From positions 209,998 to 273,997 of IMG/VR virus record IMGVR_UViG_3300034104_003795: a stretch of DNA of 64,000 nt; one strand, given 5' to 3'. Every line of letters starts with the position of its first letter. The first letter of the stretch is position 1. This document shows, in pieces, positions 20,161-37,892 of the stretch. The notes under the pieces are model-generated. The model ran no database searches. It was not told where the DNA came from and saw only the letters and a list, made by a program, of their open reading frames with translations. The stretch is from a virus. A program made the position numbers and the translations under genes.

Positions 20161-21825
20161 TTAGATATTAGCTAAATCTTTGATGTAAATCTTTCCGTAA
20201 AATTCTGGGCGAACCATCTTCTTAGCGTAACGAGTCATCACACCTCTACGCGGAGTAAAGTTTTGTGGGTCGTACACTAATGGAGTCATAATCAATGGTA
20301 CATATGGAGCGTAAACAGCACCAGTCTCAAGGAAGTTATTTCCTCTGAAGCCCATTAAGATTTCGTTAGAAGTCATATAAGGGTTTTTGTACACAGTGAA
20401 TCTGTTACTCATAGAACCAACTGCAGTTACACCAGCTGCGAATTGTAAAGCGTCTTTATCAGCATTTACAGTAAAGCCAGGAATTGATTCTAAAATAGTA
20501 CATACATCAGGAGATGCAACTACGAAGTTAGCACCACCACGAAGTGTTAATTGGTGAATCTTGTTAGAAACTTTGTTCAACTTAACACCTAATGTTTGAT
20601 ACCAAGAATTCTTAGTATAGTAAGTGTTTGCTCCAGAAGGAACTGAAGAACCCCATGCACCTGTTCCAGTTGCACCGTTGTTTAAGTATTCTTCACCAAT
20701 TGTTGCTGACCAGTATTCAGTAGTTAATGCGTTAGCTTTTAACATATCTAAAATTTCTAAATCAATCTCTAAAGAGATGTAATCAGATAACATAGAAGTT
20801 AATTCAGCTTCTGCATCAATTGAATGGTAAGCGTTTAAGTCTTGCGCTAATTCAGGAGTCCATACTGCTTTCAACTTACGAGTCTTAGCAACGATAGCCT
20901 CTGATTTTAATTCAAGATCAATTTCAGGAATATCTAATGCAGTTGTTGTGTTACCTGCACTGTTAGCTGTTTGGTCTTCGAAGTCACCTCTATCGTAAGA
21001 TACTGGTTGCTCAGAATAAACAACAGTTGAAGTACCAGCCGCTGCAGGTATTACACCATTAGATGCTGAAACAAATAATACTACGTTGTTAGAAGATACA
21101 TAGTTAAATTCGTTGATGTTTGAATTTAAAGTACCAACGCCAATAGCAGTAACGTTAAATGAACGAACTGCTTCAGAATCAACAGTTGTAGGAAGTTGGT
21201 TTGCACCACCTGCTTTAGAAACTGTTAATTTGATGATTCTACCAGCTGCTACTGAAGCAGATAATGCACCATCAAATCCTACATCAGCCCAAGAAGCTGA
21301 AGCTGCAGTTGTAGTTAAAGAAGCTGCAGATGCATCGTTTACAGAGTAGCCATATCTAGCTTCACCATAAAGACCATTTTCAGCTGCATTAGTTCTACCA
21401 AAGTTAGTTGCAGAACCAGTTACGTTAGTACCACCAAAAAGTGATTTACCAGCGAACTGACCGTTAGCACCTTGAGAAGAACCATATTTGAAATCCAAGA
21501 AGAATACAAGACCAGAAGGTAAGTTCATTGGTTGTACGCTTACGAATTCTTTTGCTGCGATTTCACCGAAGATTCTTCTTACTAACGGTAAAGCCACACC
21601 AGACCACTCTTCAGAACCAGTAGAAGTACCAGTTTGAGTTGCCTCATCAAGCAATTGCTTTGCTTGGTTTTCTAACAATACAGCCATGCTGTGTTGTTCT
21701 CTTTCTTTTAAACCTTCAAGAAGACCAGTTTTTTCCCATTTGCTTTTTAACTGACGAGTTTCAGCTAACATTACTGCTTGTGGGTTTTTGCCTTCCATAA
21801 GTTTTCCTAAATCAAAATTTGCCAT
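20161..21825 (-). CDS. 23: Major capsid protein, T4 gp23-like
   Basis: 554 residues, close to the T4 gp23 length of about 520. gp23 forms the hexamers of the head and is cleaved by the gp21 protease. Recognisable segments are RQLKSKWEKTGLLEGL near residue 25, an LLENQAKQLLDEA helix, WSGVALPLVRRIF and AAKEFVSVQPMNLPSGLVFFLDF, which is the conserved gp23 core, and VMTRYAKKMVRPEFYGKI at the end. It follows the scaffold gene by 25 bases and is followed by a strong terminator. The leader in front of ATG is A/T-only with no Shine-Dalgarno sequence although this must be one of the most highly expressed genes. Confidence 0.97.
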   Translation of the reverse strand: MANFDLGKLMEGKNPQAVMLAETRQLKSKWEKTGLLEGLKEREQHSMAVLLENQAKQLLDEATQTGTSTGSEEWSGVALPLVRRIFGEIAAKEFVSVQPMNLPSGLVFFLDFKYGSSQGANGQFAGKSLFGGTNVTGSATNFGRTNAAENGLYGEARYGYSVNDASAASLTTTAASASWADVGFDGALSASVAAGRIIKLTVSKAGGANQLPTTVDSEAVRSFNVTAIGVGTLNSNINEFNYVSSNNVVLFVSASNGVIPAAAGTSTVVYSEQPVSYDRGDFEDQTANSAGNTTTALDIPEIDLELKSEAIVAKTRKLKAVWTPELAQDLNAYHSIDAEAELTSMLSDYISLEIDLEILDMLKANALTTEYWSATIGEEYLNNGATGTGAWGSSVPSGANTYYTKNSWYQTLGVKLNKVSNKIHQLTLRGGANFVVASPDVCTILESIPGFTVNADKDALQFAAGVTAVGSMSNRFTVYKNPYMTSNEILMGFRGNNFLETGAVYAPYVPLIMTPLVYDPQNFTPRRGVMTRYAKKMVRPEFYGKIYIKDLANI

Positions 21826-23159: not shown

Positions 23160-24479
23160 TTAGAAAAGATAAATATAAGATGGGTGTTTATCATCTTTTA
23201 GTTTTTGACGGATTCTTTCATCCGAACACCCAAAATGTTCTCCGGCCTCTTTAAGAGAGCAGAATTGAATTCCTTCACACTCAATTATTGGAAGGTGTAT
23301 TTTTATTTTTGAACGTAATTGTAATTCGTTCATTTCATCGTAACTGATATCATTACGTTCAACTTTTTTCCAATGACGATATACTGGATTATTTGATTCA
23401 AAGTAGTTTCTAGCTTCTGATTCTGATATTCCTAATTTATCCGCCACCTGTTTTGGGTTCTCAAAAGGAACTCCATCTATTTCGTATTTAATTGTTGGAT
23501 TAGTTTCTTCACCAATGATTTGCCAATCTTTGTATTTTGATTTAGTAGAACGGCATCTTCTTTCAACTTCACTTGCCACCAATTCATTTGGATTAATATC
23601 AATCGCAGCTTCTCTAAAACTTCTATAAGATTTACCATCAACCACACATTTAAACGTATCACCGTTTACAATAGATTCGGTTGCAATATCAGGATTGCCT
23701 TTTACGAATACCAATATGTTTTGATGAACCGATGCCACTTTGCGATTTCTTTCAAAGTATGTATCAACAACTCTTGATGCTTGGTGTTGTGAATTAAATA
23801 GAATCATATCGTTGTAGAAATGTAATCCAGCTTCTTCACAAGCTCTAATCGTTTTCCAGACCAAACCTTTATACTTTCCAATCTTATAATTTCCTGTGGT
23901 TGATTGTTCTCTTACTTCCGATACAACTACTGCAAAGAAACGATTATCTTTTAGTTTTTCTGCAGCTTTTCTTAAAATGGAATAATATTTTTTATCAAAC
24001 GAATCCTCATCCATATTTGAAAGGTCAGCCGGATTATCGGTATATTTCTCTAAATCATAATAAGGTGGACAAGTAAACACAAAATCCTGAGTTTTGTTTT
24101 GTATTGAATCGATTACCCATTCACTATCGCCTTGTATCCAATTTGGTTTTGTAGATTGTTTTTTGTTTGCTTCAATTTGTTCATCAGAAAGGTCTATACC
24201 GTTATAGATGTATCCCATTTCAGTTGCAACTATACCTCTAACACTACCACCTGCAAATGGGTCCAATACTCTACCTTCCTCTGGACAAAACCATTCATAC
24301 ATCTTTTCACAAAGTGTAGCATCAAATATGGAAACGGTATTATCTTCCCAAAAACGGGCTCTACTTTGGGTATTTTCCCTACCCAATTCTGATTGGATAT
24401 TGTAGGTGTTAATCCACCATCTTTTACGTTCTTGCCATTCTTTAGAACGAGTATCTAAAATAGAGAAAGGTTTAATCAT
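23160..24479 (-). CDS. DNA adenine/cytosine-N4 methyltransferase fused to NUMOD-like DNA-binding repeats
   Basis: 439 residues from ATG 24479; an upstream TTG would add five residues but overlaps the promoter. The catalytic part (about 1-265) shows SAM-binding motif I DPFAGG (residues 73-78), an IDLSDEQI acidic-strand motif, and the amino-methyltransferase motif CPPY (137-140), so it probably methylates DNA at an exocyclic amino group. From about residue 275 it carries three NUMOD/HTH-like repeats (CVVDGKSYRSFREAA, YEIDGVPFENPKQVADKLG, ECEGIQFCSLKEAGEHFG), a module usually found on homing endonucleases. It sits inside the head-gene module, with its own host-like promoter and hairpins on both sides, which suggests an acquired cassette. 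Likely use: modifying phage DNA against restriction. Confidence 0.85.
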   Translation of the reverse strand: MIKPFSILDTRSKEWQERKRWWINTYNIQSELGRENTQSRARFWEDNTVSIFDATLCEKMYEWFCPEEGRVLDPFAGGSVRGIVATEMGYIYNGIDLSDEQIEANKKQSTKPNWIQGDSEWVIDSIQNKTQDFVFTCPPYYDLEKYTDNPADLSNMDEDSFDKKYYSILRKAAEKLKDNRFFAVVVSEVREQSTTGNYKIGKYKGLVWKTIRACEEAGLHFYNDMILFNSQHQASRVVDTYFERNRKVASVHQNILVFVKGNPDIATESIVNGDTFKCVVDGKSYRSFREAAIDINPNELVASEVERRCRSTKSKYKDWQIIGEETNPTIKYEIDGVPFENPKQVADKLGISESEARNYFESNNPVYRHWKKVERNDISYDEMNELQLRSKIKIHLPIIECEGIQFCSLKEAGEHFGCSDERIRQKLKDDKHPSYIYLF

Positions 24480-24483
24480 AACA

Positions 24484-24515
24484 CAAATATACAAAAAAAG
24501 TTTGGAATTACCAAA
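24484..24515 (-). promoter_or_regulatory. Host-like promoter TTTG-N20-TATATTTG in front of the methyltransferase
   Basis: TTTG (24515-24512) and TATATTTG (24491-24484) are separated by exactly 20 bases, matching the Bacteroidota -33 TTTG and -7 TAnnTTTG consensus. The -33 element lies inside the preceding terminator hairpin. Only four bases separate the -7 element from ATG 24479, so transcripts would be nearly leaderless. Confidence 0.6.
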
Positions 24516-24531: not shown

Positions 24532-25446
24532 TTATTCGAAATCAGGACTTTGTTCTACGTCCTTATATAAATTATCAATATATTTTCTTTCTATATCTGC
24601 CAAATTTCTTCTATACATTTCCAATTGATTAGTTCCCTTTTTCAAAAGTGGCATCATAGCTTCCTTTTTCTTTGGGTTCTTTTCAGCAAAGTATTTAGCA
24701 CCCATAGCTCTTTGTGCATCTTCTAATTCTCTAACTTTCTTTTGTACTGCTAAGTATTTTACATACATTTTAGGTACACCACCATATAAACCAGCTTCAT
24801 TTACTACTCCTTCCGGTACACAATTTGGAACTTGTCTACCACCCTTATTTTTCATACCAACTTGCTTATATCCTTTCCAACAAGGTGAATCTTCTTTTAT
24901 TGACTCACTTTTAACAACTTTTCCTTTTTGTTTAAAAAGTTGTTTAATATCATCTTGCGCATTTGGGTCATTTTTTCTCCACTTTTTAATTAAATCAAAT
25001 AATTTTCTTTCATCAGAACTATTCAATGGAGCAAGTTTACCTTTACCACTTCCCAATGCCATACCATTTTTGTACCAATATTCAAAATCTTTTACGTCAT
25101 CAAATAACCAAGTTGGTAAAACTCTTATATTAAATGATTCTTTTATTGAACCTTCGTTTGTTCCGTATTCGTGGTAGTTTCCAGCTGCTTGAGAAATATA
25201 GTTTTCTGCTTTAGAGATATGGTCTTGAATCCAAGCTGGTATTTCTTTTTCATTCTCACCCATTTTAGCTTTCAATTCAGTTGCCATCTTAATAATGGTA
25301 TCTAATTGATTTTGTCCCATAGAAACTTCGTGGTCTTCACCTTCAGCTTCTTTAATGAATGCAGTTGCAAATGGATTAGAAATTACTTTACCCATTTCAA
25401 ATTTACCAAATGCTTTTTGATTTACTAATCCACCTAACTTAATCAT
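24532..25446 (-). CDS. Conserved head-module protein with CWxGY motif, unknown function
   Basis: 304 residues. It begins MIKLGGLVNQKAFGKF and includes IPAWIQDHISKAENYISQA with NYHEYG (about 90-115), a segment I recall from other T4-like phage proteins, and CWKGYKQVGMKNKGG followed by PNCVPE (about 205-228), a short cysteine motif recurring in structural proteins of marine T4-like phages. The C-terminal 70 residues are strongly helical and charged. It lies between the prohead protease gene and the scaffold gene and ends the operon with a terminator, so a head-assembly or internal-core role is likely. Function is not known. Confidence 0.8.
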   Translation of the reverse strand: MIKLGGLVNQKAFGKFEMGKVISNPFATAFIKEAEGEDHEVSMGQNQLDTIIKMATELKAKMGENEKEIPAWIQDHISKAENYISQAAGNYHEYGTNEGSIKESFNIRVLPTWLFDDVKDFEYWYKNGMALGSGKGKLAPLNSSDERKLFDLIKKWRKNDPNAQDDIKQLFKQKGKVVKSESIKEDSPCWKGYKQVGMKNKGGRQVPNCVPEGVVNEAGLYGGVPKMYVKYLAVQKKVRELEDAQRAMGAKYFAEKNPKKKEAMMPLLKKGTNQLEMYRRNLADIERKYIDNLYKDVEQSPDFE

Positions 25447-26007: not shown

Positions 26008-26601
26008 TTATGCTATTTCAGTTATTATTTCTCTCATTAGGTCTTGTGCCTTGCAGTATTCTCCACAAACATCAGTACCAATATTTTTTAGTGGATTTAC
26101 GGATTCGTTCATTGGGACCATAAATGCACCATGTGTAGATGGGTTAGAAACAAAATCCCAACCAATCAATTCAAAGTCTTCTTGTACTTCCACTTTATTT
26201 CCACTCATAGGTCTAGTTGAACCCATACCTCTTGAAGAAATACCTAATAGAATTCCAGCTTTTAATAACTCTTTAAGAATGTTACCAGATGGAGTTCCTA
26301 ATATTTCAACAGTCCCACAAAGGTCATCACCTTCCCACCAAATTTCTCTGATGTTATGTGATACGTTCTTTAAGTTGATAACCGTTGAATCTGGATGGTC
26401 TAATTCACCCAATGCTCTACGTTCTTTAATAAACGTTAAATATTTTTTTGCTTCTCTTTCAAGAATTGGTTTTGGATACACTCTACCATTTTGGTTCTCG
26501 GCACCAGCTCTTTGTAGAACTCCTTTTACCAAAGTTCTTCCACCTTCATCTTCTTTTATTTTACCTTCAAATAGGTGTGTTTCTATTAATAATGATTTCA
26601 T
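26008..26601 (-). CDS. 21: Prohead core protease, T4 gp21-like
   Basis: 197 residues, close to the T4 gp21 length of about 212. The enzyme matures the prohead by cutting capsid and scaffold proteins. It has the expected early strand (TLVKGVLQRAGAENQNGRVYP), a candidate catalytic histidine in GELDHP (His69) and candidate serine in GISSRGMGS (Ser122 or Ser123), followed by FELIGWDFVSNPS, the hallmark order of the gp21/herpesvirus-assemblin-type protease family. It is one base from the helical gene downstream and lies in the canonical position between portal and scaffold/capsid genes. Confidence 0.93.
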   Translation of the reverse strand: MKSLLIETHLFEGKIKEDEGGRTLVKGVLQRAGAENQNGRVYPKPILEREAKKYLTFIKERRALGELDHPDSTVINLKNVSHNIREIWWEGDDLCGTVEILGTPSGNILKELLKAGILLGISSRGMGSTRPMSGNKVEVQEDFELIGWDFVSNPSTHGAFMVPMNESVNPLKNIGTDVCGEYCKAQDLMREIITEIA

Positions 26602-30563: not shown

Positions 30564-31001
30564 TTACCATTTTCTACAAGACCAATATCTTGCTTTTGTT
30601 CTTGGACCGGGATTATCACAATTGTGTCTTGCTCTAAAATTAGCCCTTCTACCAGGATTATTTTTCTTAATTTTTACCCCTTTCTGTCCAAAGTTTACTT
30701 TAATAACTTTACCAGTTTTAGGATTTTTAACATATACCTTAAACTTTTTCACATCACCTGCCATTGGTTTACCCAATTTCACTTCTCTACCTTGATATTC
30801 GGCTTCAAAAACACAACTACAATTAGCTTCATCTAATGATTGTGAATATGCTTTAAGATAATTGATAAAATCATCCATATCTTCTTGCTCTACATCCAAT
30901 TCATCATAATCATCAATTGGATTATCAGCCGGTTGGTCTCCTTTTGAATATGCTTTATCTACATATTCATCTTCTTTTAGGATATTTGTTAATTTAATCA
31001 T
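30564..31001 (-). CDS. Conserved small protein with C-terminal RARHNCDNPGP motif
   Basis: 145 residues. The N-terminal half is acidic (VEQEDMDDFINYLKAYSQSL). The C-terminal half is basic with KKFKVYVKNPKTGKVIKVNFG, then RRANFRARHNCDNPGP and KARYWSCRKW, a module I recall at the ends of virion-associated proteins in marine T4-like phages. Two cysteines in that module and two (CSCVF) before it could bind metal. It sits between terminase and portal behind its own late-promoter motif and has one of the few clear Shine-Dalgarno sequences (AGGAGA, eight bases before ATG). Function unknown. Confidence 0.8.
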   Translation of the reverse strand: MIKLTNILKEDEYVDKAYSKGDQPADNPIDDYDELDVEQEDMDDFINYLKAYSQSLDEANCSCVFEAEYQGREVKLGKPMAGDVKKFKVYVKNPKTGKVIKVNFGQKGVKIKKNNPGRRANFRARHNCDNPGPRTKARYWSCRKW

Positions 31002-31065: not shown

Positions 31066-32661
31066 TTATAACCATTGTGATAAATCCTCAAAATCATCAC
31101 CAATTTTCATCTTCCAAGGATTATCATCTCTATCGGATGGTCCATAAACACCAGCATGCTGCATATTCGATGAAATACCACCCAAAGTTCTCTTTGTAAG
31201 GTCAATACCTTCTTGTCTTAAACGAAGTGCAGTATCCCTTACCCACAATCCAATTGATAATGCCATCGTAAGGTCATCGTTATAACCCTTCATAGCTTCT
31301 GCTCTACCATTAATGAATATAAAAGTAAATAATTCATCAATTAAACGATTAGAACGGATTGTTACCGATTTTTCTCTAAAATATTCATCTAATTTAGAAA
31401 TAATTAAAGGTCTAGTTTTAGATGTTGTTGAAAACCCAGCTACCATTTGCCTCTCATCTGCTCTATATTTATTTTTCATTTGGTGTTCAACATCCACATA
31501 TTTTAAATCCTTACTCATATAGAATAAGTTTTTATAATCTCTATCTATACATTGTTGAATACACGCCCAACCAATATTTGAGTTTTCTATTACTAATAAA
31601 GCATCATTATATTCAGTTGATAAGTTTACTAAAAAGTTTCCAAAATCTTTTGTTTCAATTTTACCTTTGTATTCTGCAACCTGTGTTGCATTTAGTACAT
31701 CTATTACGTGACATCCAGAAAAGTCAGCACCATCTCCTCTAGCAACGTCCGCTACTACCATATAAGAGCCGTTTGTAGTTGGATATTCCCATCTCCAAAG
31801 ATTGCCATCAAATCCGGTTTTTTCAATTGGATTTTGACAATATGTTTCTTTATAGAACATTAATAATTCTGGATCAATTACAGTATCACCCGAAGATACG
31901 AAGTCACAATCACATTCTTGGGCTGCTTTTTTAGCACCCAATAATCTTTGTTGTTCATCTCTCCAACTCTGGTCTCTTTCAGGATGTACTGTCCAATGTA
32001 ATCGTATTGTATTAAATGGATTTGTTCCTTCTTCAGCATCTAACCAAGTTTTGTGGAACCAGTTACCCACACCATTAGGAGTAGAAAGTGCAATACAACT
32101 ACCACCCGTTGATAAGGTTGATTGTGCCGCTACCCAAATCTCATCAATATCATCAATAAACGCAGCCTCATCAAATATAAGTAAAGATAGAGCTTCAGAA
32201 CGTCCTGCATCAGGTGAACTCGCAATCGCTTTAATTTGAGAACCATTATTTAAACGAAGGGAAAGTTTGTTATCTTCCAAAGAACCACCCTTTAACCAAC
32301 TTGGTAATAAATCGTGCATTACCCTTACTTTAGTTACTAGGTTCTTTGCTACATCTTGTTTTGTTGCAATTACCAACACATTGAAATCGGTATTGAATAT
32401 CATCTTCCAAAGTGCATATCCAGCTGAAAGTGTTGAGATACCAGTTTGACGTGATTTCAATACTATATTAAATCGGTTATCTTTAAATTGTGTTAGAGTT
32501 TGTTCCTGAAATGGGAAAAGGTGAAAAGGTATCTTACCTCTCACCGGATGCTGAATCATACAATACTTTTTCATAAAGTGAATCGGGTCTACCGCACACT
32601 TTTTGTATTCATCTGCTATTATATCCTTCAGGGATTTCTTTTGTGTAATTCCAGTACTCAT
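31066..32661 (-). CDS. 17: Terminase large subunit, T4 gp17-like
   Basis: 531 residues. The motor cuts and pumps DNA into the head. ATPase motifs are clear: FPFQEQTL and a Walker A variant SRQTGIST (residues 70-77), Walker B LLIFDE (160-165), and a coupling segment STPNG. The nuclease half begins around residue 300 with DVARGDGADFSG, the usual first acidic motif, and ALLVIENSNIG follows. It is shorter than T4 gp17 (about 610 residues), mostly at the N-terminus. It directly follows the 227-residue gene by one base. Confidence 0.97.
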   Translation of the reverse strand: MSTGITQKKSLKDIIADEYKKCAVDPIHFMKKYCMIQHPVRGKIPFHLFPFQEQTLTQFKDNRFNIVLKSRQTGISTLSAGYALWKMIFNTDFNVLVIATKQDVAKNLVTKVRVMHDLLPSWLKGGSLEDNKLSLRLNNGSQIKAIASSPDAGRSEALSLLIFDEAAFIDDIDEIWVAAQSTLSTGGSCIALSTPNGVGNWFHKTWLDAEEGTNPFNTIRLHWTVHPERDQSWRDEQQRLLGAKKAAQECDCDFVSSGDTVIDPELLMFYKETYCQNPIEKTGFDGNLWRWEYPTTNGSYMVVADVARGDGADFSGCHVIDVLNATQVAEYKGKIETKDFGNFLVNLSTEYNDALLVIENSNIGWACIQQCIDRDYKNLFYMSKDLKYVDVEHQMKNKYRADERQMVAGFSTTSKTRPLIISKLDEYFREKSVTIRSNRLIDELFTFIFINGRAEAMKGYNDDLTMALSIGLWVRDTALRLRQEGIDLTKRTLGGISSNMQHAGVYGPSDRDDNPWKMKIGDDFEDLSQWL

Positions 32662-33397: not shown

Positions 33398-36313
33398 TTA
33401 AGAATCAAAAAATATTCCTAAAATTTGATTTAATGGTGCGAATGCACCTGTTAATTTGTAAGTGTTACCACCATATACGAATACAATACCTTCGTTTGGT
33501 ACAATCTTATCAAATCCACCCAAAGCATTTAAACGTTCTAACTCTAATTTTAATTTTGCAATCTTTTTAGGGTCACCACTTGCTTTTACTTGTTGAATTG
33601 TAGATTCCAAACGAGCTACCATTTGTCTTTTGGCACTATCAGGATTTGCTGTAAGTACCGAACTCATAAATGATAATACATCTGCACCAACTCCTAAAAA
33701 TATCTCCTCAAATCTCATTAGATTTTGCTTTGATATCTTTTGTTGGTCTTGTTTATCAGTTTGTTCAGCCCAAGCTCTTAATTTAGTATCTTGTATTGTG
33801 TTAATACGGAAACTCTTGTCACCAAAAGCCCATCTCTTAACCAATCCTATTTTTTCTTGTGTATCTAATTTTTTTGCATTCTTTTCAACAAACTTAGTCC
33901 ACCATGCTTGATGATAATCCGCTACTCCATCCGAATCACTTAATGTAAATTCAGATTGAAGTTTACTAATCATAGAAATATACTTTCCTTGTAATTTAGA
34001 AAGATGTTCTGATTTAGGTAACTTATTCATTGGTGGGCCTTGAATTGTGTATTTAGATTGTACGTGCGCATTTACTTGCTTAATCATACCGCCTAATATA
34101 GTTGCCGCTTGCTGATTCTCACCTACGATAGTACCATCAATATCGTAATCAAAAGTACCATGAAACACTAATAGCGGTTGATTGTAGGGGATTACATTTA
34201 CGGAGGTTGGATATATTACTTCCAAATTCATAAACGAACTACCATCCTTAAATATCTTTTTACGTTGAGGTTCTGATAGAGCTGCAATTGCTTTAGATAA
34301 ATCCTGCATAGCGAAATTGTAAGCATCTGTTAATCCACCTCTACCGGCAAATTTAGCAGCCACTTGTCCTATTGTCATAGCACCTTCGCCTTTGTTCTTT
34401 AAGTGTGATTTGTTACGAGCTGCAACTAATCTACCATTTACCCAACTAACTGCTAATGCTTGTCCATCGGTCTTCTCTCTTGCCAATTCTAAATCACCAT
34501 TCAATGCTCTTACCACAATTTGTTTAAGGTCACCAAATGTTAAACCCATCTCAATATCAAATGGATGTGCCATATGTCCATACGCACCACCTTCCAAAAT
34601 TAAACTCTCACTTAAAGATTCTTTTTTAACTTTTTTAAGTTGTGCCATTATTTTATCTAACTCTGCTCTTACTTTTAATTGAGCAGGTGAATTTGGCATC
34701 ATTTTAAGTGCTTTAAGAAATAATCTATCTCTTTCTCTTTCTAACTCTTTTACTCCTTCATTGAATGGAATTTCTATTTTAGAAAGTTTACTATAATAAT
34801 TTGGGTCTTCGTATAAATGGTCTAATGCAATTTCTTTTGCTATATTAACATCGGTTGTATGTTCTCTTTCAACGGCGTATCCTTTTATGAATTCGTTCTT
34901 TAAAGTTTGTGGACTGATATTATGGTGTTTAGCAATATCTTTTAAGGTCATACCCTTTGCTAATCCACCAGGTATCTGGTCTTCTTTTACCGGTTGATAT
35001 TCTTCACTATCATCTTTATTCAATTTAGATTTTAATTTCTTAACATCTTTCGGATTTGGTGCACCATTAATATATCCACCTGGTAAACTTAAACCAATAC
35101 CAGCCCCACCACCTAATCCCATTTCATCTAATATTTGAGATTCTATTTCATCCATAATTTCATTTATGTCTTGTTTTGAAATTATTTGAGGTTTTTGGTT
35201 TTTAGGAAGTTCCCAAAATCTTTTAGGTTTTTCCAATGGAGTATCTCTATTGGTTTCTTCCCAATCCTCAACGGTATGTGGGTCATCGGCAGGATTTAAT
35301 GTACTTTGTACTACATTATTAACTTTATAATAAGCCTTTCTAAATTGTGTTTCCGTATCTTTTGATTTACCCTTACCTCTCATAGCATCTGCTTTTGGAG
35401 TATGCAATTGTATATATCCACCCTGATTAAACCAAGGTTCCGGTTTTGTTACGTTTAATAATCTAATTTTCCCATCAGGAATATATCCAGTATCAGGCTC
35501 ACCTGCATCTGCTGCGTATCCGCCCATACCAGTGCTTTCTTTTAGGTTTTCTTTTTTAGGAATTCTAAAAGTTACTGCTTTCTTACCATTGATTGTTGGC
35601 ATTCCCCATTCATCCTCACCTATTGATTTAACAACTACTTTTTTATTTTTGAATTTACCCATTAACAAAGTATCACCAACTTTTACGTTTAGTTTAATTT
35701 CTTCGTTAATAGATTCTTTTAATTTTTTTAATTTAAGAGTTATCAGTTTGAATACTTGGTCATCAAACTTTGGATATGCTTTTGTAAAGTTTTTCTTTCT
35801 ATCGGCAGCACTACCCGCGCTTAACCAATAACGAACATCAGTTCCGCTAATTGGATTGGGTTGAGCAGGTGCTGCATAAACGTATCCTCTATCTAAATAC
35901 CCAGTATCTACTTTACCTTTATATTGTTTAAAGTATTTACCGCTTAAACGAGATGCATCTTTTTCACCTACCACCGTTATAAATCCAGTAGTATCTGAAT
36001 CAAACTTATTAAGTATCTCTTCTGGAGCATAAGGATTTTTAATATTGACTATTTTGTTTGATGGGATACCAAACATTGTTGTCATTATTGCTTTCTTTTC
36101 CTTAAAATTAAATGGAGATTTTTTTGAATCGGTAACATTAGAAGTTCCGATATATACGCTATCTTTACCGAATTTTTTAACCAAATGGTCATAGGTTGCG
36201 TAGTGACCTTTATGAAATGGTTGAAAGCGGCCAGAATAGACAACAACTACTTTGTCCATTCCTGCCGCTTCTCCCAATATTGTTTCTACTAAAAATTTTG
36301 CTAATCCCTTCAT
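33398..36313 (-). CDS. Nucleotidyltransferase (NMNAT-like) fused to a KxDG ligase-like domain
   Basis: 971 residues from ATG 36313 (an upstream TTG is unlikely). The N-terminal domain (about 19-210) has GRFQPFHKGH (residues 28-37, an H-x-G-H site) and ISGTDVR near 156, both signatures of NMN/pantetheine-phosphate-type adenylyltransferases. The middle is a linker with DEIESQILDEMGLGGGAG. The C-terminal domain (about 590-971) has EKTDGQALAVSWVNGRLVAARNK, a K-x-D-G motif near 613 as in ATP-dependent ligases and capping enzymes, and MNLEVIYP near 697 in the place of ligase motif III. Substrate unknown; NAD metabolism or RNA/DNA end repair are possible. An alternative start at ATG 36259 would begin exactly at the nucleotidyltransferase fold. 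Confidence 0.75.
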   Translation of the reverse strand: MKGLAKFLVETILGEAAGMDKVVVVYSGRFQPFHKGHYATYDHLVKKFGKDSVYIGTSNVTDSKKSPFNFKEKKAIMTTMFGIPSNKIVNIKNPYAPEEILNKFDSDTTGFITVVGEKDASRLSGKYFKQYKGKVDTGYLDRGYVYAAPAQPNPISGTDVRYWLSAGSAADRKKNFTKAYPKFDDQVFKLITLKLKKLKESINEEIKLNVKVGDTLLMGKFKNKKVVVKSIGEDEWGMPTINGKKAVTFRIPKKENLKESTGMGGYAADAGEPDTGYIPDGKIRLLNVTKPEPWFNQGGYIQLHTPKADAMRGKGKSKDTETQFRKAYYKVNNVVQSTLNPADDPHTVEDWEETNRDTPLEKPKRFWELPKNQKPQIISKQDINEIMDEIESQILDEMGLGGGAGIGLSLPGGYINGAPNPKDVKKLKSKLNKDDSEEYQPVKEDQIPGGLAKGMTLKDIAKHHNISPQTLKNEFIKGYAVEREHTTDVNIAKEIALDHLYEDPNYYSKLSKIEIPFNEGVKELERERDRLFLKALKMMPNSPAQLKVRAELDKIMAQLKKVKKESLSESLILEGGAYGHMAHPFDIEMGLTFGDLKQIVVRALNGDLELAREKTDGQALAVSWVNGRLVAARNKSHLKNKGEGAMTIGQVAAKFAGRGGLTDAYNFAMQDLSKAIAALSEPQRKKIFKDGSSFMNLEVIYPTSVNVIPYNQPLLVFHGTFDYDIDGTIVGENQQAATILGGMIKQVNAHVQSKYTIQGPPMNKLPKSEHLSKLQGKYISMISKLQSEFTLSDSDGVADYHQAWWTKFVEKNAKKLDTQEKIGLVKRWAFGDKSFRINTIQDTKLRAWAEQTDKQDQQKISKQNLMRFEEIFLGVGADVLSFMSSVLTANPDSAKRQMVARLESTIQQVKASGDPKKIAKLKLELERLNALGGFDKIVPNEGIVFVYGGNTYKLTGAFAPLNQILGIFFDS

Positions 36314-36318
36314 ATCAT

Positions 36319-36326
36319 ATAAATAT
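36319..36326 (-). promoter_or_regulatory. Candidate late promoter motif, start-proximal
   Basis: Sense context CCAATATTTATATGATATGAAGG. It ends only five bases before ATG 36313, so if it is a promoter the transcript would start inside the first codons, which favours initiation at ATG 36259 (preceded by GGGAG and AGGA). The other copies sit 17-42 bases from a start, with one at 145. Confidence 0.4.
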
Positions 36327-36351
36327 TGGAGATTATTGTTTTGCAAAATTA

Positions 36352-36757: not shown

Positions 36758-37510
36758 TTATTTTTTAAATACCGAAACTCCTTTTTCTTTTACAACTTCT
36801 CCGGCACAATAATTAGCCCAATCAATAGATTCTTCTACATTATTAGAATCCAAATACCTGGATACAAATCCGGCTACAAATGTATCACCCGCTCCACTTA
36901 CATCGGCATTTTGAATTCTTTTAGTTCCAATTATCTTACCTCTATAACTTGCTCCCCTACCGTCCAACGTAATGATACATTTATTATATAACCAATCAGT
37001 ATCTCTAATAATAGAATCATTATTTTGAGCTTCAAATCTGTTTATTTTTATAAAGGATGTGTTTTTACACCAATCACCTAAATGCTTTTTGGTATCTACT
37101 ATCGTAAATTTGGCCATAGATGATATCTTATCAATATCTTCTTCGGTTAGGAATCCCTTACAATAATCCGATATAACAACCGCATCATATTTTACCAAAT
37201 CCGGCAAATCGTAGATATCAATTCTATTTGTAGTATCATTTTCATCAACTCGCAAATATAATTCATTTGTATCTTTGTTTACATATCGTGTTTTAGTAAT
37301 ATTACCTTTATCAAAATATGTATCAACATCCAATCCCATAGCTTCTAAATTAGATGCTGTGTTGCCCGCCATTCCTTTACTCCAAACTTTTAATTCATCT
37401 ATTGGTAAGAAAACTGGTCCATTTCCTTCTGGAGATTTTCTACTTGTTATGCCATACCAAAAAATATCGGTACAAACCTCTCCAATAACTAAAACTTTAT
37501 ACTTACGCAT
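36758..37510 (-). CDS. PfkB-family sugar kinase, HldE kinase-domain-like (heptose-7-phosphate kinase)
   Basis: 250 residues. The family phosphorylates D-glycero-D-manno-heptose 7-phosphate at C1, a step towards ADP-heptose. It shows the HldE-type N-terminus (VIGEVCTDIFWYGITSRKSPEG, compare DRYWYGPTSRISPEAP in HldE), the PfkB glycine motif GMAGNTASNLEAMG, the DYCKGFL segment, and the C-terminal PfkB active site VSGAGDTFVAGF. It is shorter than the HldE kinase domain (about 315 residues), with loss in the middle. It overlaps the nucleotidyltransferase gene by eight bases. HldE is usually one bifunctional protein; here its two activities are separate genes. The phosphorylated sugar is inferred from the partner genes. 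Confidence 0.8.
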   Translation of the reverse strand: MRKYKVLVIGEVCTDIFWYGITSRKSPEGNGPVFLPIDELKVWSKGMAGNTASNLEAMGLDVDTYFDKGNITKTRYVNKDTNELYLRVDENDTTNRIDIYDLPDLVKYDAVVISDYCKGFLTEEDIDKISSMAKFTIVDTKKHLGDWCKNTSFIKINRFEAQNNDSIIRDTDWLYNKCIITLDGRGASYRGKIIGTKRIQNADVSGAGDTFVAGFVSRYLDSNNVEESIDWANYCAGEVVKEKGVSVFKK

Positions 37511-37892
37511 TATGTATTAAATTTGAAGTACTGAATCCTTCTATTTTTTCAAAGTATTTAATTTCTTTGGCAAATTCTTTACCTATTATTTTTTTATTCT
37601 TATACTCATCACCAATTACAAAAAAATCAGGATTGTATCTTTTAATTTGTTCTTCTAATTGTTTATCACTTCCAAATATTACAACTATATCAACACCTTC
37701 TATTTGCATTAAGTTAAACACTCTTTGACCTTCGGTATGAAAAGGTCTATCAGTTCCTTTTAGTTCTTTTACTCTAATATCAGAATCAATACCAATAACC
37801 AATTGGTCACCTAATGATTTTGCGTATTCAATTAGTTTAAAATGACCGTAGTGTAAAATATCAAAACAACCGTTAATCCAAACTTTTTTCAT
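37503..37892 (-). CDS. HldE/RfaE2-like nucleotidyltransferase (ADP-heptose synthase type)
   Basis: 129 residues. The family transfers AMP to heptose 1-phosphate to give ADP-heptose. It has the cytidylyltransferase site GCFDILHYGH (H-x-G-H), GIDSDIRVKELKGTDRPF, matching the LKGPxRP segment of HldE, and the C-terminal GFSTSNLI motif. The central IEGVDIVVIFGSDKQLEEQI also follows the HldE pattern. It is slightly shorter than stand-alone RfaE2/HldC proteins (about 160 residues). It overlaps both neighbours (eight bases with the kinase, one with the heptosyltransferase), so the three are translated together. A CDP-glycerol-type enzyme is the main alternative but the LKG motif and kinase partner favour ADP-heptose. 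Confidence 0.85.
   Translation of the reverse strand: MKKVWINGCFDILHYGHFKLIEYAKSLGDQLVIGIDSDIRVKELKGTDRPFHTEGQRVFNLMQIEGVDIVVIFGSDKQLEEQIKRYNPDFFVIGDEYKNKKIIGKEFAKEIKYFEKIEGFSTSNLIHNA

Follow-up and report, generated by a model that had tools for sequence, protein, structure and literature searches.

Background

Multidomain injected 'polyvalent' proteins, NMNAT-like proteins of virions and internal head proteins cut by the prohead protease gp21 are already known in phages. The gp21 protease of T4 cleaves after L/I-x-E, and a T4 internal protein needs no more than its first ten residues, the capsid-targeting sequence (CTS), to be packaged (PMC9026906). Polyvalent proteins are multidomain chains packaged in the virion, some of them unprocessed, according to the sections of PMC5512222 considered here. 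Mass spectrometry of S-CREM2 virions detected the proteins gp154 and gp156 (PMC10665884), and NMNAT-like virion proteins have been reported for S-SCSM1, S-CBWM1 and S-SZBM1; the authors reporting such proteins from cyanophages warn of possible co-purification.

Here we analyse a long gene in a window of 64 kb (the whole stretch of DNA examined), which comes from a 274-kb IMG/VR virus record. The reading that we favour, with a probability of about 0.62, is that its product is a virion-packaged, gp21-processed polyprotein of a T4-like phage that delivers an RNA-repair or NAD kit. In the open-access literature we found no description of enzyme polyproteins cut by a prohead protease, nor of the ligase-like family reported below.

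Results and discussion

Gene and domain organisation

The coordinates given for the gene in an earlier note on this DNA are correct once read on the minus strand (Table 1); over the same interval the plus strand is riddled with stops. An in-frame TTG at 36346 would give an ORF of 982 aa (33398-36346), and we prefer the ATG because most relatives align from it. Relatives are encoded by 532 candidate stretches of IMG/VR and lie on hundreds of phage contigs.

Table 1. Features of the polyprotein gene, of the head-gene region and of the same virus's genome (residues in 971-aa numbering; a slash marks a candidate or aligned cut)
Feature	Coordinates	Strand	Description
Polyprotein gene	33398..36313	-	971 aa from ATG at 36313
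N-terminal leader MKGLAKFLVETILGE	36269..36313	-	T4 capsid-targeting-sequence-like; candidate cuts after E10 and E15
HIGH-type nucleotidyltransferase (NMNAT/PPAT-like), predicted	35714..36259	-	residues 19-200; H34-K-G-H37, ISGTDVR 155-161
Small beta module	35540..35701	-	residues 205-258, IKLNVKVGDT...VTFRIPK; 'KOW-like' by eye; candidate cut after LKE259
Variable low-confidence linker module	35123..35539	-	residues 259-397; missing from several relatives
Glycine-rich module MGLGGGAGIGLSLPGGYINGAP	34982..35122	-	residues 398-444; candidate cut after VKE444
DUF5661 module	34757..34981	-	residues 445-519; Pfam PF18905, E 2.3e-11
Helical module	34592..34756	-	residues 520-574; ends with tandem candidate cuts LSE569/SLILE574/GG
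C-terminal ligase-like domain	33401..34591	-	residues 575-971; E613-K614-T-D616-G617 (KxDG, motif I), R633-N-K635
Terminase large subunit	31066..32661	-	neighbour of the polyprotein gene
Prohead protease, T4 gp21 homologue	26008..26601	-	GELDHP and SSRG motifs; 31% identity to T4 gp21 (alignment)
Major capsid protein gp23	20161..21825	-	propeptide site LLDE/ATQTG aligned with T4 FLTE/AEIGG
Stand-alone P-loop (PNK/zeta-like) kinase	G000:C1:116481-117272	-	same virus's genome
Second long modular protein (L178)	G000:C1:164593-168831	-	1412 aa; outside the window; leader MNVSQLINEILTE

The HxGH and ISGTxVR motifs near the N-terminus and the EKTDG and RNK motifs near the C-terminus, on which the earlier note had relied, are all present. 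By itself KxDG is uninformative, because 0.61 occurrences are expected per shuffle of the 971-aa protein; HxGH and KxDG occur jointly in 0.8% of shuffles, and the motifs are raised above chance by their conservation among homologues. The placing of two nucleotidyl-transfer domains on a single chain was borne out, the N-terminal one by Pfam CTP_transf_like and the C-terminal one by ligase motifs and a structural model, and the long linker claimed between them is real, since residues 252-449 and 562-584 are of low confidence in the full-length model (pLDDT 57.5, used for boundaries and the N-terminal fold only) and highly variable among relatives.

The N-terminal nucleotidyltransferase

Residues 19-200 match Pfam PF01467 (CTP_transf_like; E 8.6e-9, 36.1 bits against a cut-off of 21) and PHROGs 395 and 3041, both annotated 'cytidyltransferase'. 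Solved NMN adenylyltransferases resemble the domain in phmmer searches (best 2qjt, E 4e-4), and its fold neighbours in the full-length model are PPAT/NadD enzymes (Z up to 8). The NCBIfam equivalogs gave scores well below their cut-offs, at best 34.4 of 397 bits for NadM/NadR and 24 of 181 bits for the archaeal NMNAT. Judged by its sequence the domain is a HIGH-type nucleotidyltransferase with HKGH and ISGTDVR intact. Most marine relatives read GPHH (GxHH) instead of HxGH, and for this reason enzyme activity may vary across the family.

The C-terminal ligase-like domain

Ligase motifs I, III, IIIa, IV and V follow one another in ligase order within the C-terminal domain, with E698 as motif III, VFHG (716-719) as motif IIIa, NEGIVF with E941-G as motif IV and YKLTG with K953 as motif V; a search for the last two had been proposed in the earlier note, and both were found. 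Across 33 homologues, with identities as low as 37%, E-K-x-D-G, R-N-K, E698, H718, E941-G and K953 never vary. Two features set the domain apart from known RNA ligases: none of its members has the K-x-K form of motif V, all reading YKLTG, YKFTG or similar (K-x-T, with one lysine), and a peculiar helical insert of about 190 residues separates motif IIIa from motif IV.

Profile searches of this part, another check that had been suggested, gave weak matches to PF09414 (Pfam RNA_ligase) for 21 of the 33 relatives (best E 0.0047), all below the gathering cut-off and without the window domain itself among them, and no ligase family passed its own cut-off. The domain had no match in PHROGs. Against PDB sequences the C-terminal profile gave spurious eS6/TetR matches only, which were discarded. 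A cellular origin was likewise rejected for the few cellular matches, which lie on short MAG contigs: we took them as phage DNA because terminase-like genes are present on L184, L185 and L187 at least. The ligase-like domain represents a widespread family that neither Pfam nor PHROGs contains.

The AlphaFold model for this domain had a pLDDT of 81.5. Its top seven Foldseek matches were RNA ligases, but with E values of 0.4-0.8 (0.05 for the ligase domain when the full-length model was used), and VIA-align gave Z values of 3-5 (<5) for RNA ligases. NAD-dependent DNA ligases were absent among the Foldseek and VIA matches listed, which excludes nothing. In the VIA alignments residue 40 of the model, which is K614, falls on position 148 of Trl1 and 170 of the Naegleria ligase (NgrRnl), residue 41 is paired with position 100 of T4 Rnl1 and 36 of T4 Rnl2, and residue 42 with position 94 of the Palaeococcus ligase, whose nucleophile is K92. 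The aligned ligase residues are identified as nucleophiles in part by the titles of PDB entries. On this model the KTDG lysine K614 falls on the nucleophilic lysine of RNA ligases, the scores being weak. Because the Foldseek E and VIA Z values are weak the call of a ligase fold rests on the motif register, and because Z is only 3-5 we name the domain 'ligase-like' rather than filing it as an RNA ligase.

The catalytic ligase residues are invariant down to 37% identity whereas HxGH varies, and this argues against a main role in NAD+ replenishment in the face of an NAD-depleting host defence, the C-terminal domain being then a degenerate, non-catalytic ligase fold that serves for binding. Such a role would suit the intact HxGH and ISGTxVR of the window protein, and cyanophage virion NMNAT-like proteins have been interpreted in this way in the literature. 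We regard it as unlikely; the genome record, which may be incomplete, contains no match to direct RNA ligase, NAD-ligase or nicotinamide phosphoribosyltransferase families, and the lack of the last of these also speaks against it.

Leader, prohead protease and head-gene setting

The polyprotein starts with MKGLAKFLVE/TILGE/A, to be compared with the start MKTYQEFIAE/A of T4 IPII/IPIII. A strict CTS-like leader pattern was present in 51 of 57 relatives as against 19 of 347 (5%) other ORFs of the genome, and a second count found the leader feature in 35/35 relatives. Downstream of the gene, 133 of the 135 relatives with at least 3 kb of sequence there carry a terminase gene, on the same strand and no more than about 3 kb away. 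The gene's position where the packaging genes begin had been called unusual for such an enzyme; processing of a polyprotein by the prohead protease would explain it.

Other genes of the region deserve mention in their own right. The packaging/head-region gene at 30564-31001 (-), with the CTS-like start MIKLTNILKE/D, and the head-region gene at 24532-25446 (-), with the CTS-like start ...TAFIKE/A, are candidates for head-packaged proteins. A DNA methylase-like gene (CPPYYD motif) lies inside the head gene cluster at 23160-24494 (-). Upstream of the polyprotein, at 36758-37892 (-), genes for a PfkB-type sugar kinase and a cytidylyltransferase (CFDILHYGH) are adjacent in a split-HldE-like arrangement, and the pair adjoins glycosyltransferase-like genes.

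Linker modules and their junctions

Among close relatives the linker is about 130 to 440 aa long, and each of its cassettes is either there in full or missing altogether, most of them having a terminal (I/L/V)-x-E. The window chain has candidate sites at E10, E15, E200, E204, E259, E397, E444, E519 (FNE), E569 and E574, most of which are within low-confidence or disordered stretches of the full-length model. The small beta module has a 69% identical counterpart in the polyprotein L128, is separate in Pelagibacter phage HTVC008M, and is followed by [ILV]xE in 35/35 relatives.

We compared the positions of homology breakpoints with those of the motif in 94 non-redundant polyproteins. Of the breakpoints, 30% lay no more than 3 aa from [ILV]xE, against a mean of 12% (maximum 19%) at control positions shifted by 10-40 aa, and a global control gave 40% against 9%. 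No excess appeared at [ILV]xD (8.8% against 8.3%), and the figures for [ILV]xK were 26% and 23%. The 70% of breakpoints that lie away from [ILV]xE are partly due to the fuzziness of BLAST ends. The motif stands immediately before the P-loop kinase module in 14/14 cases and immediately before the C-terminal domain in 88 of 92 distinct contexts, the other 4 having LLLM and not LxE; at this last junction (I/L)(I/L)xE/GG could instead belong to the fold itself and not mark a cut. On these comparisons, relatives exchange modules at (I/L/V)-x-E junctions, near the L/I-x-E rule of the T4 prohead protease.

Alternatively, the chain would enter both virion and host uncut, in the manner of a polyvalent protein, and the junctions would reflect recombination between similar linkers; some polyvalent proteins are, as noted above, unprocessed. 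We hold this distinctly unlikely: the [ILV]xE rule is specific, with its lack of an [ILV]xD excess, and close to that of gp21, the motif also precedes the same modules where these are separate genes with their own leaders, and the linker residues flanking it are not conserved.

Relatives and free-standing modules

Chains of marine relatives reach 2428 aa and draw on a set of NMNAT-like, P-loop kinase, KOW-like, PAP2, Pol-beta-like, zinc-protease-like, CCA-adding and HD modules, the PAP2 module sitting in the gene that adjoins the polyprotein L094. A CCA-adding enzyme head domain was found in L185:829-6555 (1909 aa; E 1.5e-29) and, together with an HD domain, in L165:1-7284 (2428 aa; E 5e-31). 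The window polyprotein has neither kinase nor CCA enzyme, which counts against the favoured reading, although the virus has a separate kinase gene. The ligase-like domain is almost always last in marine chains.

Several of these modules also occur as separate proteins. In HTVC008M three of them, KOW-like, kinase and NMNAT-like, are encoded by adjacent genes, beside a DUF6267 gene (KWDG motif), and the kinase matches a PHROG polynucleotide kinase (8.5e-8). In the genome of the window virus the conserved part of the stand-alone kinase begins directly after IITE/GVDDPGIL, as in polyproteins, and the second long modular protein has several [ILV]xE junctions and shares modules with L128. Among the proteins detected in S-CREM2 virions, gp154 is an NMNAT-like homologue with the leader MKNFSSFLTE/A, and gp156 is homologous to the Pol-beta-like module of the polyprotein L157 (32%, 6e-33). 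Flavobacterium phage immuto gp080 is a stand-alone DUF5661 protein with its own leader, MKKSQLRQIIKE/A; a published study of immuto virion proteins was searched for and not found. The immuto scaffold (L181 gp067) contains a tandem duplicate of roughly 65-70 aa (GFEQWLDSVSAQMDKFGKNNP...) between LEE/G and LAE/A, and the duplicated segment is bounded by candidate protease sites.

Both domains occur together in almost every relative for which sufficient sequence is available, among them the 639-aa version of Microcystis phage Mel-JY01, which has little else. This is what one would expect of a true fusion enzyme made during infection, in which the two domains cooperate on one chain, for example with the NMNAT domain recycling the NMN released by a ligase that consumes NAD+. 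The adenylation domain of NAD-dependent DNA ligases is indeed weakly matched by one relative (E 0.007). However, domain order and spacing are not kept, the ligase coming first in L186 and standing alone behind a leader in L163/L164, the linker varies in length as described, and the junctions lie at protease-like sites. We therefore consider a fusion enzyme very unlikely, and the picture of one given in the earlier note is probably wrong: junctions, leader and genome position point instead to a polyprotein that the prohead protease would cleave.

The partners of the ligase-like domain are PNK-like kinase, CCA-adding, HD and Pol-beta-like modules, and because of this company we suggest that it serves in the repair of RNA, most likely tRNA. 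The modules of relatives favour RNA repair over NAD salvage.

Proposed mechanism and implications

The domain content, the complete ligase motifs, the swapping of modules at (I/L/V)-x-E, the CTS-like leader and the protease gene are established features of the locus and its relatives. For the window polyprotein we infer packaging, cleavage, injection, ligase activity and an RNA substrate, in the following manner. The chain would be translated late, together with the head genes, and its leader would direct it into the prohead core. At head maturation a gp21-type prohead protease would cut after (I/L/V)-x-E, removing the leader and freeing modules that include the NMNAT-like nucleotidyltransferase and an RNA-ligase-like covalent nucleotidyltransferase starting at GGAYGH. 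The freed enzymes would be injected with the DNA and be active from the start of infection, the C-terminal domain most likely in adenylate-dependent joining or repair of RNA ends, probably of tRNA cut by host defence, and the NMNAT-like domain in NAD+ restoration or other nucleotide handling.

Whether this reading can be extended to a T4-like clade as a whole is more tentative. We give slightly less than even odds to the view that in this clade the capsid maturation protease doubles as a polyprotein protease, with enzyme cassettes added between (I/L/V)-x-E sites behind one capsid-targeting leader, and that a ready RNA-repair and NAD kit (the new-family ligase together with PNK-like kinase, CCA-adding and NMNAT-like enzymes) is thereby packaged and injected in the first minute of infection. 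If true, the leader and the (I/L/V)-x-E junctions would provide rules, readable from sequence, for predicting injected phage proteins, and they would apply to aquatic phages that are very common and carry mostly 'hypothetical' cargo. Tailed phages would then possess a polyprotein strategy like that of RNA viruses, with the head protease as processor. RNA repair in T4 is a system expressed after infection; here, if the reading holds, it may arrive with the virion.

Comparison with known systems

Like the polyvalent proteins of Iyer et al. 2017, in the sections considered here (PMC5512222), the window chain joins several unrelated enzymatic domains and is encoded with virion genes; for those proteins, too, packaging and injection were inferred and release by peptidases was proposed. 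The difference lies in the processing, which there is assigned to embedded peptidase domains whereas the window sites fit a separate prohead protease, and no peptidase domain was found in the window chain. The same sections make no mention of the ligase-like domain.

With the NMNAT-like virion 'cytidylyltransferases' of cyanomyoviruses (S-CREM2, S-SCSM1) the window protein shares the HIGH family of PHROG 395/3041, and the S-CREM2 leader is also CTS-like, but those proteins come from a separate gene and are without the ligase-like domain. RNA ligases (T4 Rnl1/Rnl2, the fungal Trl1 LIG domain and archaeal enzymes) have motifs I, III, IIIa, IV and V in the same order and the nucleophile in register, whereas the window domain differs in its K-x-T rather than K-x-K motif V, in its large helical insert between IIIa and IV and in escaping recognition by PHROGs and, above the cut-off, by Pfam. 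DUF6267 (PF19782) of pelagiphages and cyanophages resembles the system in being a KWDG protein of about 400 aa that in HTVC008M lies beside kinase, KOW-like and NMNAT-like genes. The HTVC008M protein (L166:1736-2968) has VKWDG, EGYV and KLV and is perhaps another covalent nucleotidyltransferase; as a homologue of the window ligase-like domain it was rejected, profile comparison not being significant and the likeness being by eye only.

The likeness to the T4 proteins IPI-III and Alt is in the short N-terminal leader ending in (I/L)-x-E/A; these are cut by gp21 and injected with the DNA (PMC9026906). The leader of the window chain is CTS-like and likewise ends in (I/L)xE, and the phage encodes gp21. 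In T4, however, each leader serves one protein, whereas the window chain carries many modules behind one leader, with further candidate sites between them.
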